From positions 1 to 47,563 of the forward strand of contig CACXUM010000029.1 in assembly GCA_902770835.1 (NCBI GenBank): DNA of 47,563 nt, in the 5' to 3' direction. The position numbers and the translations under genes were made by a program. Shown piece by piece: positions 2,650 to 33,627 of the stretch (its first letter is position 1; every line of letters starts with the position of its first letter). This DNA is from an uncultured Bacteroidia bacterium. GTDB lineage: Bacteria > Bacteroidota > Bacteroidia > Bacteroidales > F082. Below the pieces are notes generated by a model. The model was given only the letters and a program-made list of their open reading frames with translations. It was not told the DNA's origin and did no database searches.

Positions 2650-3966
2650 TCACAAAAACATCACGAAATAGACAGGTATGTAAATGATCGTTCCCTTGGT
2701 CTCCCATTTCTGGCCGTTTGATAAAACGATGCCCTTATTGATATGATAGTCAGGTGTTTGGGTGAAGTGCGTCAGTGCGACATGTATTTTATAGTCTTTC
2801 CCAGACTTCACCTCGATAGGCAATACTGAGAGATTGTCGTAGTCGTCGATGAGAAAATCCACTTCGCCGTGGTGCTTGTTGTCGTAATAAAACAGATTGT
2901 GGCCATGTGCCTTCAGTTCCTGGGCAACCACCGACTCGTAAACAGAGCCTAAATTGATGCTTGGCGTATCTTCGAGTATGGGCAGGATGTTGGTTTTGTA
3001 CAAAATGTTGGTCAGTAGTCCGACATCATTCAAATAGAGTTTCAACAAGTTCTTCCGCGCAGATTCCACCAAAGGGAATCTTGGATTGGAAATGGCCTTC
3101 ACTTCAAGCGCAATGCCAGAAGAAATCAGATAGTCGAATTCGTCTTGGTAATCAGAGAATTGCTTCCCTGCCTTGTTCTCTATATCCTTTACCACGACAC
3201 GCTTTTTCTTGTTTTCGAGGTTCGAGGGAATCATTTGGAACACGTTTTGGATTATAAGTTTGTGTTCAGCATCATAACGCGAGGCGTCGGCACCATAATA
3301 ACGATGGATTTCGGTTTGTATGCGCCTCATTTTCATAATGTTTCGTTCTGAGAGATAGGAATTTATGGCATCAGGAAGGCCGCCGGTCAGAAGATATTCA
3401 CGGAAAAGTGTCATCATCCTTTGGTGAAGGGAGTCGTCAAGGCTTTGCTGCGCAAGATATTTATCCCGCACAAACGAAATGGTTTCCTCGTTAAATCCAT
3501 TTGCCCAAAGAAACTCCTCGAAATCAAGTGGATACATCTGCAAGGTTTCAATGCTTCCTATTGGAATGCTCGGCGTTTGGAGCAAAGTCACGCCAAGCAG
3601 CGAACCGCTGCAGATGTAGGTGTATCTGTCGTCGTCTTTCAGGAACTTCAACAAAGTGAGGAACACGGGATAGGTTTGGATTTCGTCCAAAAAAACGAGT
3701 GTGTTTTCCTTTTTGCGCAGTTTGTTTCCAGCAAAGGTGCCGAGCATGGTGTAAAAGTCAATTACGCTCCGTACATTGGCAAACATACGACTACCTGTAC
3801 TGTCGGCTTGTAGGTTGATTTCCACATAATTGGGGAACAGTTTCTTGCCCACATGTCGGATGATATAGGTCTTGCCGATTTGTCGTGCTCCGTCAACCAG
3901 TAGGATTTTGTTCGATGGAACTGACAAGAATTGGGTGATTTCTTCCTCTATTTTTCGCTTCAACAT
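2650..3966 (-). CDS. AAA ATPase with DUF4143 C-terminal domain
   Basis: A 438-residue member of the AAA_14/DUF4143 family. Walker A is GARQIGKT (residues 26-33) and Walker B is NTLVFLDEIQ. The C-terminal region carries a PD-(D/E)XK-like signature, EVDFLIDD followed by LPIEVKSGK. These ATPases are numerous in Bacteroidota genomes and their cellular role is not established; nucleic-acid or selfish-element functions have been suspected. The ATG at 3966 lies 21 bases from a good promoter box. The gene stands alone between the Kelch-AraC regulator and the kinase-AAA+ gene. A 33-bp tandem repeat lies upstream at 4033-4122. Unlike the ATPases at 8382 and 23714, no repeat was seen at its 3' end. Confidence 0.9.
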   Translation of the reverse strand: MLKRKIEEEITQFLSVPSNKILLVDGARQIGKTYIIRHVGKKLFPNYVEINLQADSTGSRMFANVRSVIDFYTMLGTFAGNKLRKKENTLVFLDEIQTYPVFLTLLKFLKDDDRYTYICSGSLLGVTLLQTPSIPIGSIETLQMYPLDFEEFLWANGFNEETISFVRDKYLAQQSLDDSLHQRMMTLFREYLLTGGLPDAINSYLSERNIMKMRRIQTEIHRYYGADASRYDAEHKLIIQNVFQMIPSNLENKKKRVVVKDIENKAGKQFSDYQDEFDYLISSGIALEVKAISNPRFPLVESARKNLLKLYLNDVGLLTNILYKTNILPILEDTPSINLGSVYESVVAQELKAHGHNLFYYDNKHHGEVDFLIDDYDNLSVLPIEVKSGKDYKIHVALTHFTQTPDYHINKGIVLSNGQKWETKGTIIYIPVYFVMFL

Positions 3967-8190: not shown

Positions 8191-8192
8191 TC

Positions 8193-8264
8193 TTGTAGGG
8201 CTGTCGCATCGTGGCTGTCGTTCCCTGGACATTTTTGCGACTCCATGACAAGACGGCCCTACAA
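8193..8264. repeat. Imperfect long hairpin after GH2 gene
   Basis: Outer arms TTGTAGGGC (8193-8201) and GCCCTACAA (8256-8264) are perfect. An inner GTCGC/GCGAC pair sits at 8203-8207 and 8237-8241. It follows the GH2 stop by 2 bases. It could be a dispersed palindromic element or a structured 3' end; it lacks a T-run. Confidence 0.5.
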
Positions 8265-8275
8265 ACCAATATCCC

Positions 8276-8376
8276 AATTTCGGGCGGAATCGATGAAATT
8301 TTTTTCGATTCCGCCCACTTTTATATAGAATCTGGGCGGAATCGATGATTTTTTGCTCGATTCCGCCCGGATTCTG
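8276..8376. repeat. Hairpin doublet, left copy (52-bp spacing)
   Basis: Two 35-base palindromes lie at 8282-8316 and 8334-8368. Both begin GGGCGGAATCGATGA and end TCGATTCCGCCC, giving 12-bp perfect arms. Their starts are exactly 52 bases apart. The block ends 5 bases before the stop codon of the DUF234-type ATPase (minus strand, stop at 8382-8384). The same block recurs in the same orientation at 9837-9937, on the other side of the gene. Confidence 0.95.
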
Positions 8377-8381
8377 ATTTT

Positions 8382-9806
8382 TTAGTCTTCAAACAAGTCA
8401 TCTAAAGTGAGTTGAAAGGCCATTTCTGAAACATAACTGTTTTGCGAGGCTCCGTTGGCGGTGATGAGGGTGGGGAGGATGCCGCAGCGAGTTCCGGTTT
8501 GTTCCACGAAGGCGGCTCGACGTTTCCTGATTTTTGCAGCTTCCTCTTTGTCAAGCAGATATGCGCCTTCGCTGTATTTGATTTCGCAGAGGTTGATCAT
8601 CTTGTCGGCGCGCTCGATGATGAGGTCGATTTGGGTTTTGTCGTTCTTCGCCTTGCTGCGCCAAGCGTAGTACTCCGTCCCGATGCCGTCGATTCGGAGG
8701 GCTTTCTTGATTTGCGGAATGTGTGCCATGCAAAGCCGCTCGAAGGCGTGGCCGTACCATGTGTTGACGGTCGGGGTGCCGAGGTGATGAAGCCAATATT
8801 GTTGATCCTCAAATTGTTTGGTGGCGAAAGTGAGGTGAAACAGCGTGAAGAAATCGGTGAGTTGGAAGATGCCGCCCGTCGCCTTGATTTTCTTCTCGCG
8901 GGTGTGGTAGCGGCGGATGAGGTCGCAGTTTTCGAGGTCTTCCAATTGGTTGCTGATATGCCCGTTGTCGGCGGTTTTCAGTTTCTTGGTGAGTTCCACG
9001 CGGGTGAGGCCTTTTTTGTTGGCCGCCAATTGCGCGATGATTTTCAGATAAGGTTTCTCGTTGTCAAACAGCGACTTATACAGCGATTCGTATTCAGAAG
9101 CCAGTTCGCCGCCCTTGCTGAAACACAGCCTGTCGATGTTTTGGGCAAGGCTTTCGTTGTTTTTCAGAAGGCTCAGATAGTAAGGTACGCCGCCGAGCAT
9201 CATGTAGGCTTGGGCTGTCATCTGGCGTGTCCAGTGGAAGCCGTTGGCGTTCAGGTAGTTTTCAGTTTCTTTTAGGGTGAAGGGCGCAAGATGTATGCTG
9301 TGTGTCAGGCGGTTGTGAAGCCCGCCACGGTTGTTGATGATGTTGCGCACCATCCACGAGGTGGCACTGCCGCAAACGATGAGTTTCACCTCGTCGCGCA
9401 ACGAGGCCCAAGTGTTCCAAAACTGCCCCAAAGCCCGCACGAAAGCGCCGCCTTTCCTGTCGAAACACGGAAGTTCGTCGATGAAAATGACGCAAGGCTG
9501 GCCGTTTTTTGCTTTTTGTGCCATCAGTTCCTGCAAGGCGTGGAACAACTCCAACCAATTGGACGACAGCGGTTTTTCGTAGCCATATTCGCGCAGCGCG
9601 ATTTGGAAGGCCGACACTTGTTCCGACTTTTTCCCGTAGAGCAGCCCGGAGACGGAAAACGTCAGTTCGTCTTTCAGCACTTGGTTGATGAGAAAGGTTT
9701 TCCCGACGCGCCTCCGCCCGTAGAGGCCGATGAACTCGGCGTGGTTTGAGCTGATGTATTCCCGCAGCAGTGCAGTTTCTTTTTCTCTTCCTATTAAAGT
9801 AGCCAT
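8382..9806 (-). CDS. AAA ATPase, archaeal-ATPase/DUF234 family
   Basis: A 474-residue protein. I choose the ATG at 9806 (MATLIGREKE) because the longer reading frame runs back through the hairpin doublet and has an implausible N-terminus. The GREKE motif, Walker A GRRRVGKT (30-37) and Walker B CVIFIDELP mark the archaeal-type ATPase family (PF01637). A winged-helix segment follows (KKGLTRVELTKKL, SNQLEDLENCDLIRRY). The C-terminal DUF234 region has a PD-(D/E)XK-like signature, QIDLIIER then LCEIKYSEG. The end, NSYVSEMAFQLTLDDLF, matches the remnant at 31310-31492. Its role is unknown. Both ends are flanked by copies of the same hairpin doublet, the strongest sign in the window of a mobile or self-associating unit. 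Confidence 0.9.
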   Translation of the reverse strand: MATLIGREKETALLREYISSNHAEFIGLYGRRRVGKTFLINQVLKDELTFSVSGLLYGKKSEQVSAFQIALREYGYEKPLSSNWLELFHALQELMAQKAKNGQPCVIFIDELPCFDRKGGAFVRALGQFWNTWASLRDEVKLIVCGSATSWMVRNIINNRGGLHNRLTHSIHLAPFTLKETENYLNANGFHWTRQMTAQAYMMLGGVPYYLSLLKNNESLAQNIDRLCFSKGGELASEYESLYKSLFDNEKPYLKIIAQLAANKKGLTRVELTKKLKTADNGHISNQLEDLENCDLIRRYHTREKKIKATGGIFQLTDFFTLFHLTFATKQFEDQQYWLHHLGTPTVNTWYGHAFERLCMAHIPQIKKALRIDGIGTEYYAWRSKAKNDKTQIDLIIERADKMINLCEIKYSEGAYLLDKEEAAKIRKRRAAFVEQTGTRCGILPTLITANGASQNSYVSEMAFQLTLDDLFED

Positions 9807-9836
9807 AACTGAATCAATTTCGCCGCAAAAATAATA

Positions 9837-9937
9837 AATTTCGGGCGGAATCGATGAAATTTTATTTAATTCCGCCCACATTTTTACAGAAACTGGGCGG
9901 AATCGATGATTTTTTGCCCGATTCCGCCCAGATTTTT
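9837..9937. repeat. Hairpin doublet, right copy (52-bp spacing)
   Basis: Palindromes lie at 9843-9877 (right arm slightly degenerate) and 9895-9929 (11-bp arms). Starts are again 52 bases apart. Sequence and orientation match the block at 8276-8376, including the inter-hairpin spacer (AC-TTTT-A-AGAA-CT). The block begins 31 bases upstream of the ATPase ATG, so the gene sits between direct repeats of about 100 bp. Confidence 0.95.
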
Positions 9938-9954
9938 GTGTTGGTTGCAAAAAC

Positions 9955-29864: not shown

Positions 29865-29897
29865 AAACCAGCCATTGTAAAACACATTGGCTGGTTT
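29865..29897 (+). terminator. Stem-loop between precursor and maturase (partial terminator)
   Basis: AAACCAGCCA (29865-29874) and TGGCTGGTTT (29888-29897) enclose a 13-base loop, followed by CATTTTGTATT. The T-tract is interrupted, so some read-through into the maturase gene is expected, keeping precursor mRNA in excess. Confidence 0.6.
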
Positions 29898-29913
29898 CAT
29901 TTTGTATTATCAC

Positions 29914-31128
29914 ATGTACTACCATCTTAATAACTCTATATACCTGGTTTCTGGATATAGTTATGGATGTATTTATGATTTGTTGCATAACAAATTATAC
30001 CATGTTGCTAATGATGTTATAGAAATAATCAGTAGGATTGTTTTAAACAATACACTTACGAAAGAAAACTGTTCATTTTTATCCTATTTTTTGGATAAAA
30101 AGATACTGGTAGAAAAAGACAAACCTTGTAAGAGGATACCACTATTGACAGATGTGTATAATTATCCAAGACAAATTGATTTTGCCTGGATAGAGGTTAC
30201 TAATTCTTGTAATCTCAAATGTATTCATTGTTATAACGAAAAGGCGAACATCAAAAAGACTTTTCTCCGTTTTGAAGAGTTCAAGTACATTGTTGATGAA
30301 CTCACAAGTATTGGAATCAATAAAATACAAATTATAGGTGGAGAACCTTTTTTGTTAGAAAAGAATACGTTATTTGAAATGATGGGCTATCTGTCAGGTA
30401 AAGTTGATAGTTTTGAAATTTTTACCAATGGAACACTAAACACAAAGGAAGATCTCTTGTATATTAAAACGCATTGTCCTAATGTACATATAGCCACTTC
30501 TTTACATTCTAATATTCAAAAAGAACATGAGCGCGTGACCCAAGTATTGGGGTCTTATGAATTAGCCGTTACGAATATAAGGAATGCAAAAGAAATAGAA
30601 TTGCCTATTAGGTATGTGGGGACGTTAATAGGCTGTATTAATGTTGGAAAAGAACTTGAATTTGGACCGCCCTCAAGAAGGGACTATATAAGATTGTCAG
30701 GAAATGCCATACTTCAATTGTACAATGATGAATTACTAAAAGAGCGTGTTATAACAGAAAAAAGATTTGAAATTGAAAACTTAAAGGAACGAGTGGATGT
30801 GGTTTACAATGAAAACTGTTTTTCCACTCATTTATATGTTGGATGCGATATGGAGGTATATCCATGTCCTATGGAACGAAGAATCTCTCATGGAAATTTG
30901 AAGGGGAAGCATTTATCGGAACTTTTGGAAAACAGCATTTTAGATTTTTCTAAAGATGAGATTGAAGGTTGCAAAGATTGTGAATATAGGTATTTGTGCA
31001 TTGATTGCCGACCAGATTCGATTACTGGTAACTTTTTTGAAAAGCCTTGGTATTGCACTTACAACCCATACAAAGGAGAATGGGTAACTTTTGAGGAGTT
31101 TAAAGAATCAATAAAAGCGAAGCAATAA
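29914..31128 (+). CDS. Radical SAM/SPASM peptide maturase
   Basis: I choose the ATG at 29914 (404 residues); the longer frame starts with a TTG inside the stem-loop. Residues 1-75 form a small domain (YYHLNNSIYLVSGYSYGCIY) like the N-terminal part of other Bacteroidota peptide maturases, possibly the precursor-recognition element. The radical SAM motif CNLKCIHC has C99, C103 and C106; GGEP is at 142-145. A SPASM domain with two auxiliary [4Fe-4S] clusters is indicated by C311, C318, C353, C356, C362, C365 and C381. Such enzymes install thioether, C-C or other crosslinks in precursor peptides. Similarity to the SPASM enzyme of grasp-with-spasm systems is possible, but no ATP-grasp gene is present. 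Base composition is clearly more AT-rich than the neighbours, a sign of transfer. Confidence 0.85.
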   Translation: MYYHLNNSIYLVSGYSYGCIYDLLHNKLYHVANDVIEIISRIVLNNTLTKENCSFLSYFLDKKILVEKDKPCKRIPLLTDVYNYPRQIDFAWIEVTNSCNLKCIHCYNEKANIKKTFLRFEEFKYIVDELTSIGINKIQIIGGEPFLLEKNTLFEMMGYLSGKVDSFEIFTNGTLNTKEDLLYIKTHCPNVHIATSLHSNIQKEHERVTQVLGSYELAVTNIRNAKEIELPIRYVGTLIGCINVGKELEFGPPSRRDYIRLSGNAILQLYNDELLKERVITEKRFEIENLKERVDVVYNENCFSTHLYVGCDMEVYPCPMERRISHGNLKGKHLSELLENSILDFSKDEIEGCKDCEYRYLCIDCRPDSITGNFFEKPWYCTYNPYKGEWVTFEEFKESIKAKQ

Positions 31129-31217
31129 TCAAGTAAGGAGAGGGAAGTAAGAAAAGACTTGTTTCCAATGTTATTATTTTGTAGTTCAATGTATTGGCAG
31201 AAAAATATGCAATTATC

Positions 31218-31310
31218 ACTTGACGGAATCTCACAAAAAATCAAGGATTCCGTCAAGTTATCCATTATATTTTGACGGAATCTCGCAAAATTTGGCACAT
31301 TCCGTCAAGT
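31218..31310. repeat. Hairpin doublet (52-bp spacing), GGAATC core
   Basis: The first palindrome has 13-bp perfect arms, ACTTGACGGAATC (31218-31230) and GATTCCGTCAAGT (31246-31258). The second has 10-bp arms, TTGACGGAAT (31272-31281) and ATTCCGTCAA (31299-31308). The TTGACGG starts are 52 bases apart, the same spacing as the doublets at 8276 and 9837. It abuts the stop codon of an ATPase remnant on the minus strand. Confidence 0.92.
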
Positions 31311-31492
31311 TATAATGGGGTTTCGTTGGATGTAAATAGCTGTTCTAAAGTTACTTGCGATTGTGCTATATCGCTGTAAATGTTGCGTTTTACGCCGTAG
31401 GTTGTTATCATGGTGAGGTGCAATACTTTGCGGATTTTGGAGTATAGGTGGTCGTATTCATCCCACAATGCGCCTTGTTTTTTCGGATATTG
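31310..31492 (-). pseudogene. C-terminal remnant of a DUF234/archaeal-type ATPase
   Basis: On the minus strand, from 31492 to a TAA at 31310-31312, the frame reads QYPKKQGALWDEYDHLYSKI, then LTMITTYGVKRNIYSDIAQS and QVTLEQLF. This matches the end of the ATPase at 8382-9806 (LPTLITANGASQNSYVSEMA, then FQLTLDDLF) in pattern and position. No start codon or ATPase core remains. It lies directly after, and in the same frame as, the RelE-type toxin stop at 31493-31495. Its own stop touches the hairpin doublet. Confidence 0.75.
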
Positions 31493-32032: not shown

Positions 32033-32791
32033 TCACGCTTTGCTGTCGTAAATTTGTAGTCTAATAGTAAATCCATCAAATACCGCATAACTGAAATCAT
32101 AAATCCAATTTCCCACAACGGTGGTCAGGGCATGGTCGCCGGATGGGTATTGCATCGGTTTGTGCTGGTGGCCGAAAACGAAGAAATCAATTGAAGGGTC
32201 GAGCAGGGCTTGCTCTTGGGCATATTGGTAGAGGCGCGTGTTGGGAATGTCGTCATAATAGCCGCGTTCCACTTCGTTTTTGATTTTTTTCAGGCGATGG
32301 TTGTGTGACCATTTCAAGGCCAAACCTATGCCGAAGTCGGGATGTATCAGCCTGAACAAGAACTGGTTGAATTTGCATTCAAACACCTTTTTCAGGAACT
32401 TGTAGCCCTTGTCGCCGGGGCCTCTGCCGTCGCCGTGAACGAGGAAGAACTTCTTGCCTTTGATGGTCTTGATGACGGGTTCGCGGTGCAGTTCAATCCC
32501 GATTTCATTGCGCAAGTAACCGAAACTCCAAAGGTCGTGGTTGCCGATGAACAAATGCACGGGGATGCCCGCATCAGTGAACTCGGCCAATTTGCCTTGC
32601 AGCCTGACGAAACCCTTGGGAATCACGGTCTTGTACTCAAACCAAAAGTCGAACAAGTCGCCCATCAGGTAGAGTTCCTCGCAGTCGGGACGGATTTGTT
32701 CCAAAAAACGCAATAACTTGCGCTCGCGCTCGTGGCTGTCCTCAAGCGAGGGAATGCCCAAATGGAAATCGGTGACGAAATAAACGGCCAT
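32033..32791 (-). CDS. lpxH: UDP-2,3-diacylglucosamine diphosphatase
   Basis: A 252-residue calcineurin-like phosphoesterase. The metal-binding motifs are in order: DFHLG, GDLFDFWFEY, GNHD, VHGDGRG and GHQHKP. The DFWFEY segment after GDxxD is characteristic of LpxH, which cleaves UDP-2,3-diacylglucosamine to lipid X in lipid A synthesis at the inner membrane face. Its ATG overlaps the stop of punA by one base (TGATG), and lpxK lies just upstream, so two lipid A genes share this operon. Confidence 0.88.
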   Translation of the reverse strand: MAVYFVTDFHLGIPSLEDSHERERKLLRFLEQIRPDCEELYLMGDLFDFWFEYKTVIPKGFVRLQGKLAEFTDAGIPVHLFIGNHDLWSFGYLRNEIGIELHREPVIKTIKGKKFFLVHGDGRGPGDKGYKFLKKVFECKFNQFLFRLIHPDFGIGLALKWSHNHRLKKIKNEVERGYYDDIPNTRLYQYAQEQALLDPSIDFFVFGHQHKPMQYPSGDHALTTVVGNWIYDFSYAVFDGFTIRLQIYDSKA

Positions 32792-33627
32792 CAGAACTTG
32801 ATTTCGGACGAGCGGCGGATGAGTTCGGTGATGAGGGTGATGAGTTTCGGCTCCACGGCGTTCACGGCCTTGATGACTTCCTCGTGCGTGATGGTGACGG
32901 GATGGTCCTCGCCGTAGATGTTGCCCATGTCGGAGATGATGGACAGGCCGAAAACGGGCAGTTTGCCTTGTCGCGCCACGATGACCTCTGGCGTGGTTGA
33001 CATTCCGATGGCGTCAGTCCCTATGATGCGGAAGTAGCGGCACTCGGCAGGCGTTTCGTAGGTCGGGCCGGTGGTGGCGGTGTACACACCATGCTGAACT
33101 TCAATGCCTTTCTCTTTTGCGATGGCATCGGCCAAGTGGATGAGGCGCTTGTCGTAAGGCTCGCTCATGTCGGGGAAACGATCGCCGAAACGGTCGTCGT
33201 GCGGCCCAATCAGCGGGTTGGGCATCATGTGGATTTGGTCGGTGATGATCATGATGTCGCCCACCTTGAAGTCGGGGTTGAGGCCGCCAGCGGCGTTGCT
33301 TAGGATGAGGAATTGTATGCCCAACTGCATCATCACGCGAATGGGGAAGGTAACGGTTTCTATTGGGTAGCCTTCATAGAAGTGGAAACGCCCTTGCATG
33401 GCCACCACGCGCCGACCGGCAATGGTGCCAAACAGCAGTTGCCCCTTGTGGCCTTGCACAGTGGAAACAGGGAAGTTCGGTATGTCAGAATAGGGGATGG
33501 CGTGTTGCACGGTGATGCCATTGGCCAAACCGCCCAAACCAGAACCTAAAACGATACCGATTTCTGGACGGAAATTTCTCGTTTTCAGGTTGATATAATC
33601 AATTGTAGTGAGTATCTTCTCGTACAT
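32791..33627 (-). CDS. punA: Purine nucleoside phosphorylase
   Basis: A 278-residue protein of the trimeric PNP/MTAP class. The phosphate-binding N-terminus is IGIVLGSGLGGLANGI, with QGHKGQL, then QGRFHFYEGY, SNAAGGLNPDFKVGDIM, and the purine site TTGPTYETPAECR followed by DAIGMSTTPE. It splits (deoxy)guanosine and inosine with phosphate for purine salvage. It overlaps lpxK by 29 bases and lpxH by one, so it is translated within the lpxK-punA-lpxH operon. Confidence 0.95.
   Translation of the reverse strand: MYEKILTTIDYINLKTRNFRPEIGIVLGSGLGGLANGITVQHAIPYSDIPNFPVSTVQGHKGQLLFGTIAGRRVVAMQGRFHFYEGYPIETVTFPIRVMMQLGIQFLILSNAAGGLNPDFKVGDIMIITDQIHMMPNPLIGPHDDRFGDRFPDMSEPYDKRLIHLADAIAKEKGIEVQHGVYTATTGPTYETPAECRYFRIIGTDAIGMSTTPEVIVARQGKLPVFGLSIISDMGNIYGEDHPVTITHEEVIKAVNAVEPKLITLITELIRRSSEIKF

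Follow-up and report, generated by a model that had tools for sequence, protein, structure and literature searches.

An uncultured Bacteroidia bacterium carries an ATPase gene that stands between two copies of the same hairpin doublet. The gene lies in a stretch of 47,563 nucleotides (contig CACXUM010000029.1), the whole of which was analyzed and is called the window below. This arrangement raises the question of whether hairpins and gene form one mobile unit and, if so, what moves it. An initial annotation, made from the letters of the window, proposed a mobile or amplifying unit without a transposase and compared it with REP elements and their RAYT proteins.

Hairpin doublets on both sides of an ATPase gene

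The features of the window that matter for this question are as follows.

8276..8373, minus strand: downstream hairpin doublet (hairpins 8282-8316 and 8334-8368), a direct repeat of the upstream doublet
8385..9806, minus strand: gene for a STAND-type ATPase with a C-terminal PD-(D/E)XK-type domain, 474 aa, PADLOC PDC-S27, assigned by profile and fold matches
9826..9833, minus strand: promoter-type box TAnnTTTG, between doublet and start codon
9837..9934, minus strand: upstream hairpin doublet (hairpins 9843-9877 and 9895-9929)
8191..9949, no strand: stretch present in filled but not in empty same-genus alleles, limits approximate
31215..31308, minus strand: second hairpin doublet, relic of another unit (hairpins 31215-31261 and 31272-31308)
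31310..31443, minus strand: remains of roughly the final 40 codons of a paralogous ATPase (...HLTMITTYGVKRNIYSDIAQSQVTLEQLF...), assigned by sequence match

The 98-nt block at 8276-8373 is repeated at 9837-9934 in the same orientation with 91% identity and a start-to-start distance of 1561, which agrees with the block of about 100 bp that the initial annotation had described. It had also described 35-base palindromes whose starts are 52 bases apart. This spacing holds within the upstream and downstream doublets alike. The GGGCGGAATCGA/TCGATTCCGCCC arms match perfectly in two of the four hairpins; in the others, 9843-9877 and 9895-9929, the right arm carries two mismatches and one mismatch, respectively. 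Arm matches with at most two mismatches number 15 in the window, compared with 4.3 expected, and none of 100 shuffles reaches 15. Eight of the 15 fall in the four doublet hairpins. A search of the whole genome of the organism (3.26 Mb, 85.8% complete) with the doublet block returned matches at the window locus only, and no transposase was found between the two doublets. We take the TAnnTTTG box to be the Bacteroidota -7 promoter consensus.

A fused ATPase and nuclease-type protein

The encoded protein is predicted from its sequence to be a P-loop ATPase of the STAND / ATPase_2 type (Pfam PF01637, E = 1.4e-13), with a PF03008 (DUF234) match that sits exactly at the cut-off of 22.5 bits. The PADLOC profile PDLC04984 (PDC-S27) aligns with residues 1-472 of 474 over profile positions 1-473 of 474 (E = 6e-181), which places the protein in that family. 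In an alignment of 22 paralogs, the P-loop GRRRVGKT, D110-E111, D394, E408, and K410 are all kept, with the P-loop and the residues of the nuclease motif D394...E408-x-K410 invariant.

The model of the full protein (pLDDT 89.7) has its best fold match in 2qen, a P. abyssi ATPase (E = 1.9e-12), followed by ORC/Cdc6 and plant NLR chains. For the C-terminal domain modeled alone (pLDDT 94.1), the only PDB matches at E <= 0.001 are AF1548, McrC, and MspJI (E 6e-5 to 8e-4; query TM 0.39-0.54), and the next-best fold matches are the repair endonucleases 2vld and EndoMS (5gke). Among solved structures related by sequence, two weak AAA matches were found and nothing else. The predicted fold and the motif together place this domain in the PD-(D/E)XK superfamily, in agreement with the signature that had been read from the sequence at the outset. 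The ATPase-nuclease gene is the sole gene in a unit of roughly 1.6-1.7 kb, and no HUH/Y1 Pfam match was found in the unit.

Block-wise presence and absence of the unit

The window locus was used to search 99 same-genus genomes (own genome included), and 30 fetched loci were read. Eight of these alleles are filled (one partially), two hold a solo doublet, 17 are empty, and three are unclear. In the seven filled alleles with a readable GH2 gene end (L217, which is the window, L218-L222, and L224), ATPase and doublets are present; L220 is cut by a contig end, and L223 is the partial allele. The ATPase is absent from the solo doublets L225 and L227, the latter of which is reversed. In empty alleles, the GH2 gene end is followed by the terminator-like repeat of the neighbor. 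L231, L240, and L246 have another neighbor or end early, and no doublet was seen in them.

Twelve of the 99 genomes contain the exact hairpin pattern, which in every case lies beside a window-type ATPase or forms a solo doublet at the site of this gene; no genome contains the backward control pattern. Both doublets are retained in relatives that have the ATPase at the window position and complete flanks. The presence/absence comparison proposed in the initial annotation came out clean, with neither randomly placed doublets unconnected to the ATPase nor loss of a flanking copy where the ATPase keeps its position. Hairpins and gene form one insertion unit. In addition, genome G081 carries a 79%-identical ATPase with its upstream doublet between other genes, where the downstream doublet is absent, and the window site in that genome is empty. 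No target duplication was found at the window site itself. The mobility of the unit is well supported, and it behaves, as proposed, as a mobile unit with no known transposase.

Adjoining the unit at 8193-8264 is a 73-bp inverted repeat (TTGTAGGGC...GCCCTACAA), which is present in filled alleles and, in altered form, in solo alleles, and which was not seen in the empty alleles read. It is included in the stretch 8191..9949 and may not be the unit's own. The TTGTAGGGC sequence occurs seven times in 263 kb of own-genome loci.

The doublets themselves show several changes. Across seven species, the identity of upstream and downstream copies within one genome is 0.845-0.928, and the mean values of 0.842 (up-up), 0.882 (down-down), and 0.864 (cross) provide a weak test. 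A compensatory change common to both copies in L047 hints at concerted evolution of the doublets. In the upstream copy of the same locus (L047_up, 2373-2470), one hairpin has its loop inverted in place when compared with the 13 other aligned copies, and the downstream copy of L060 and the solo doublet of L227 are also inverted. These inversions suggest cruciform processing or template switching.

A private hairpin for each paralog

The genome of the organism has 43 PF01637 matches, 32 of them above the cut-off, and the 40 stretches examined around such matches include 22 full-length genes of the window type. For each gene, the 700 bp upstream was compared with the 700 bp downstream, and 1,764 mismatched-locus pairs served as the control. 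Thirteen of the 22 paralogs score above the control maximum of 45, eleven through hairpin repeats and two (L024 and L025) through outer direct repeats. Examples of the scores are 151 for the window, 155 for L010, 159 and 96 for L011, 146 for both L012 and L021, 116 for L033, and 110 for L023. A hairpin lies just upstream in 20 of the 22 paralogs. Stem sequences vary by locus, and the hairpins are private to each paralog. This family-wide pattern extends beyond the initial annotation, as does the decayed copy at 31215-31443 described below.

In deduplicated loci drawn from the genus and the class, an upstream hairpin (arms of at least 11, within 200 bp) is found at 85% of 137 loci, compared with 9% of shuffles and 6% of control windows. 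A downstream hairpin (arms of at least 11, within 130 bp) is found at 50% of 139 loci, compared with 2% and 1%, respectively. Units carry single or double hairpins upstream and often downstream too, and about half of the homologs are without the downstream hairpin. Hairpin-type direct repeats on both sides occur at 69 of 136 loci versus 5 of 300 mismatched pairs, but these controls can include orthologous pairs, so the case for hairpin pairing rests on the own-genome test with 1,764 pairs. Seven Prevotellaceae-type relatives (L053-L059) have a hairpin upstream only, although the upstream side of L059 is cut. Retention therefore does not require a hairpin pair, and movement perhaps does not either.

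A TAnnTTTG box lies at most 90 bp from the start codon in 115 of 133 homologous loci and in 11 of 133 control windows. Where box and hairpin are both present (107 loci), the box starts inside the hairpin in 32, at most 30 bp after it in 48, and further away in 27, such that the hairpin overlaps or abuts the box in 80.

Another explanation would treat the hairpins as transcription terminators or RNA elements whose match on the two sides arose by chance or local duplication. Stem-loops are common near gene ends, and the downstream doublet of the window does follow the stop codon. However, the window hairpins have a T-run in the loop and not 3' of the stem, the upstream copy is located at or upstream of the promoter box, and in 13 of 22 loci the score of the matched private pair is above that of all 1,764 controls. 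The pairing of hairpin and protein, presented next, contradicts this explanation too, and we regard it as hardly tenable.

Hairpins move with the gene

Hairpin sharing was compared among 140 deduplicated genes, and pairs were classed as non-syntenic if they had no flank match of at least 150 bp within about 2.3 kb. With the proviso that short flanks may mask synteny, the upstream hairpin is common to 79% of 38 non-syntenic pairs at a protein identity of at least 80%, to 18% of 22 pairs at 70-80%, to 4% of 51 pairs at 60-70%, and to at most 1% of pairs below 60%. The 38 pairs represent about eight families, and 20 of them come from the one group of seven, L053-L059. Hairpins move with the gene, and their sequences differ among paralogs.

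This result bears on the idea that the unit is non-autonomous, with the ATPase as cargo and with hairpin ends that a different recombinase, or hairpin-processing enzymes of the host, would recognize in trans. A unit without a known transposase is what this idea would lead one to expect, and the solo doublets and the hairpin loop inverted in place are consistent with it. Hairpins that differ among paralogs and follow the protein are not. Moreover, because the window hairpin is found across the 99 genomes only at the ATPase or its site, a shared trans enzyme would be left without a common end. We consider this explanation quite improbable.

Copy number and distribution

Paralogs in the genome of the organism are at most 60% identical to each other. 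Copies were analyzed in three genomes (22 of 25, 22 of 24, and 18 of 21 matches), and the highest identity among the 615 within-genome pairs is 61%. Only one of these pairs has cross-matching hairpins. For 41 of the 62 copies, one of the other genomes in the set has a counterpart at 80% identity or more, and 36 of the 41 are syntenic. Recent amplification within a genome was rejected because no pair in the three genomes exceeds 61% identity, although assembly collapse could mask recent near-identical copies. The description of the unit as amplifying is accordingly not borne out.

The type is present in 21 of 30 sampled genomes of the genus (own genome included), with 0 to 25 matches each, and in 36 of 295 genomes of the class (E <= 1e-60, with scoring limited to five candidates per genome). 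Homologs on one plasmid each of Butyrivibrio and Emticicia and on several virus-labeled contigs have upstream hairpins as well. No such hairpin was found close to the gene in L372 or in a Desulfosarcina plasmid homolog. A virus or plasmid origin was considered and rejected, as the virus-labeled homologs (20 loci) and the plasmid homologs (137 records, all below 60% identity) are distant.

Two further observations concern distant homologs. On the virus-labeled contigs L370 and L371, tandem CCGCGGTATATAATGC...GCCGCGG palindromes lie upstream of the homolog, again as a doublet. The haloarchaeal homologs L391, L392, and L394 have TTAGTAAAATCG-type direct repeats just upstream. In one of the three, an upstream hairpin with 12-bp arms is formed with the TTAGTAAAATCG-type repeat, and no upstream hairpin with arms of at least 10 was found in the other two.

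A second, decayed unit in the window

Positions 31247-31443 of the window match the gene end and downstream side of L127, an intact copy in genome G022, at 78% identity. The flanking gene at 32073-32868 is the ortholog of the gene beside this intact copy. Judging from these matches, 31215-31443 is the remnant of another unit, orthologous to the L127 insertion.

The gene just upstream of the relic (29887-31128) has a CxxxCxxC motif, which we take to be radical-SAM-like. Elsewhere in the window, an AAA_14/DUF4143 ATPase gene at 2650-3966, presumably of the kind taken as PDC-S01, has nearby hairpins with 10-bp arms only.

Target duplications at other sites

At three other sites (L024, L139, and L150), the hairpin-bearing unit has on either side a directly repeated copy of a host gene end, 53-65 bp long. 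Because the duplicated ends are single-copy in empty alleles, these repeats are target-site duplications. At L024, which is in the genome of the organism, the 53-bp end of a presumably miaB-like host gene is found on both sides of the hairpin-ATPase-hairpin arrangement with 96% identity. The same site in 29 same-genus loci is empty in 19, filled in two, and cut or occupied by other inserts in eight. Each of the 19 empty alleles has one copy of the gene end, with 5-102 bp between the two flank alignments. A further stretch of about 315 bp to the right of the second copy is absent from empty alleles, and we read it as a separate insertion.

The L139 unit (G021; filled also in G087 and G016) has a duplication of 64-65 bp that is single-copy in the empty genomes G055 and G029, where the flank alignments overlap by 65 and 64 bp, respectively. 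Among 25 genomes, only these two are collinear and empty. In six, a related copy shares the left junction and has a different right flank, twelve have the left flank with no contiguous ATPase and the right flank elsewhere, and G041 and G007 show a partial match.

At L150 (G012), a 53-bp duplication is single in the empty genome G094, as read from the sequence (alignment overlap 29 bp). Genome G007 has this gene end on both sides of a stretch of about 0.7 kb that lacks an ATPase (L360, 600-1560), and thus a duplication at this site can exist without the unit. At L127, a 44-bp gene end is duplicated. Relatives have a single copy, some with a solo hairpin or relic, and they are not collinear with L127 at its far flank.

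Non-hairpin direct repeats were listed in 21 of 136 loci, and 14 of these remain after removal of seven true hairpins (L049, L093, L106, L131, L144, L156, and L329). With L138, L139, and L293 counted as a single event, the 14 loci stand for about 12 independent insertions, and their repeats align over 27-125 bp. Five loci were listed with inverted repeats, and three of these are not hairpins. Mismatched controls gave such non-hairpin repeats in 4 of 300 pairs (direct) and 0 of 300 (inverted). The inner limit of the upstream copy is 122-193 bp before the start codon in 13 of the 14 loci, and that of the downstream copy is 58-138 bp after the stop codon in 11 loci and 7-9 bp in two; L344, at 370 and 220, stands apart. 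Most of these limits fall immediately beyond the hairpins, or directly after the gene where the downstream hairpin is absent. The repeats of L014, L025, L111, L112, L114, L123, L134, and L344 are candidate duplications, and the 125-bp repeat of L112 (74% identity), which contains a GTAGGGC-type repeat, may not be a target duplication.

The family as a whole displays the general characteristics of a transposable element, namely a defined unit, empty sites, target duplication, and copies in different locations. The window site displays all of these but the duplication.

At the L024 site, two other species carry different ATPase-like genes (L249 in G041 and L250 in G081, 445 and 456 aa), which we take to be AAA_14/DUF4143-like. 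The gene junction is an insertion hotspot. Neither a hairpin pair nor a duplication was seen with these two genes.

The main rival to a mobile element is that the gene encodes an antiviral ATPase-nuclease (PDC-S27) whose hairpin is an operator, and that it has spread by ordinary horizontal transfer and illegitimate recombination. Its profile match at E = 6e-181 and the counting of the family among common rumen and archaeal defense candidates favor this view. An operator would account for a hairpin at the TAnnTTTG box in 80 of 107 loci and for an upstream hairpin that is more constant than the downstream one, and the gene-end duplication in G007 lacks the ATPase. Not predicted by this view, however, are a second hairpin of matching sequence past the stop codon, outer limits that in most candidates lie similarly close beyond the hairpins, and recurrent target duplications of 44-65 bp. 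We judge it to be rather unlikely.

Proposed element and mechanism

We think it somewhat probable that the doublet-ATPase-doublet arrangement is one copy of a family of small single-gene mobile elements, each moved by its own ATPase-nuclease via cognate hairpins. Such a unit, about 1.6-1.7 kb in size, would consist of subterminal hairpins, a promoter, and the STAND ATPase-PD-(D/E)XK gene, and would insert at host gene ends or in intergenic positions with duplication of roughly 44-65 bp of target. At some sites the gene is missing, and solo doublets and truncated relics remain. We infer a catalytic role of the enzyme in movement because it is the product of the sole gene in the unit, has a nuclease-type fold, and is paired with its hairpins. 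The initial annotation had named it as the natural candidate to recognize them.

In the mechanism that we propose, each ATPase would bind its own hairpins at the element ends, either as duplex or as extruded cruciform or single strand. ATP-driven assembly could then bring the hairpin ends together in an element-encoded synapse. The nuclease domain would nick the element ends and the target strands with a stagger of about 44-65 bp, and gap filling of the staggered nicks would yield the long target duplication. Through the promoter hairpin, the protein may also repress its own gene, and this could account for the presence of one copy per specificity per genome. Solo doublets could arise by recombination between the two direct doublet copies.

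Several points weigh against movement by the unit's own enzyme. The hairpin overlaps or abuts the promoter box, and an operator alone would explain that. Near-identical copies within a genome were not found, unlike for most transposons, although short-read assembly may hide them. No target duplication was found at the window site, and G007 has a duplication free of the ATPase.

Relation to known elements and to PDC-S27

IS200/IS605 elements are small single-gene units with subterminal hairpins, an HUH Y1 transposase, and no target duplication. The unit resembles them in its size, single gene, and subterminal hairpins, but it encodes an ATPase-nuclease, has no HUH Y1 match, and is flanked by duplications of 53-65 bp at L024, L139, and L150. 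REP/RAYT systems (REPtrons) have palindromes on both sides of one gene, and the paired hairpins of the unit recall this layout. Dispersed palindromes mobilized by a hairpin-binding protein are nevertheless a poor description of the unit, because the window hairpin is undispersed (12 of 99 genomes, one locus in its own genome), an HUH/Y1 protein is absent, and long target duplications are found at other family loci. The analogy drawn in the initial annotation therefore deserves practically no credence.

Tn7-like transposons use TnsA, a restriction-like nuclease, and TnsC, an ATPase, and the target duplication of Tn7 is 5 bp. The unit also combines an ATPase with a PD-(D/E)XK nuclease, but it does so in one fused gene, with no DDE transposase and with duplications of 44-65 bp. 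A unit of 1.6-1.7 kb leaves no room for a second gene and thus for a DDE transposase.

The available text of PMC12988326 describes PDC-S27 as an ATPase domain fused to PD-(D/E)XK, handles it as a defense gene, and counts 3,503 in Archaea and 4,562 in Bacteria; that of PMC13356809 reports 2,865 in 6,530 rumen genomes and MAGs. The window protein belongs to the same family by HMM over nearly its full length and has the same domain make-up as described in PMC12988326. Hairpins, target duplications, and mobility of a unit go unmentioned in the available portions of these accounts.

The nearest experimental precedent found is the Rpn/YhgA-like nucleases (PF04754). In the available text of PMC5350276, these are encoded by single PD-(D/E)XK genes with variable tails, promote RecA-independent recombination, and are tied to independent insertions at one locus; Rpn nucleases are also reported to act in phage defense (PMC10327210). 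The portions of these articles at hand describe Rpn proteins as nucleases without an ATPase domain and mention neither flanking hairpins nor target duplication. No description of hairpin-bracketed elements of the PDC-S27/ATPase family was found in the open-access literature. The best reading is that the unit is a new, undescribed type of transposon-like element.

Implications

In its fullest form, our proposal is an autonomous transposon class that combines private-hairpin recognition, 44-65 bp duplications, and same-specificity exclusion, which would permit up to two dozen mutually orthogonal elements per genome. PDC-S27 proteins in Bacteroidia would then serve, at least partly, as the enzymes of selfish elements. 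We regard this proposal as nearly balanced between true and false, with a slight lean toward the latter.

The approximately twenty natural hairpin/protein variants in a single genome are a ready specificity series for experiments. An ATPase and a restriction-like nuclease in one gene, with specificity residing in a hairpin, offer a possible route to new recombination chemistry. Members of the family that sit in units which are bounded by hairpins and duplicate their targets change how the defense counts of PDC-S27 may be read.
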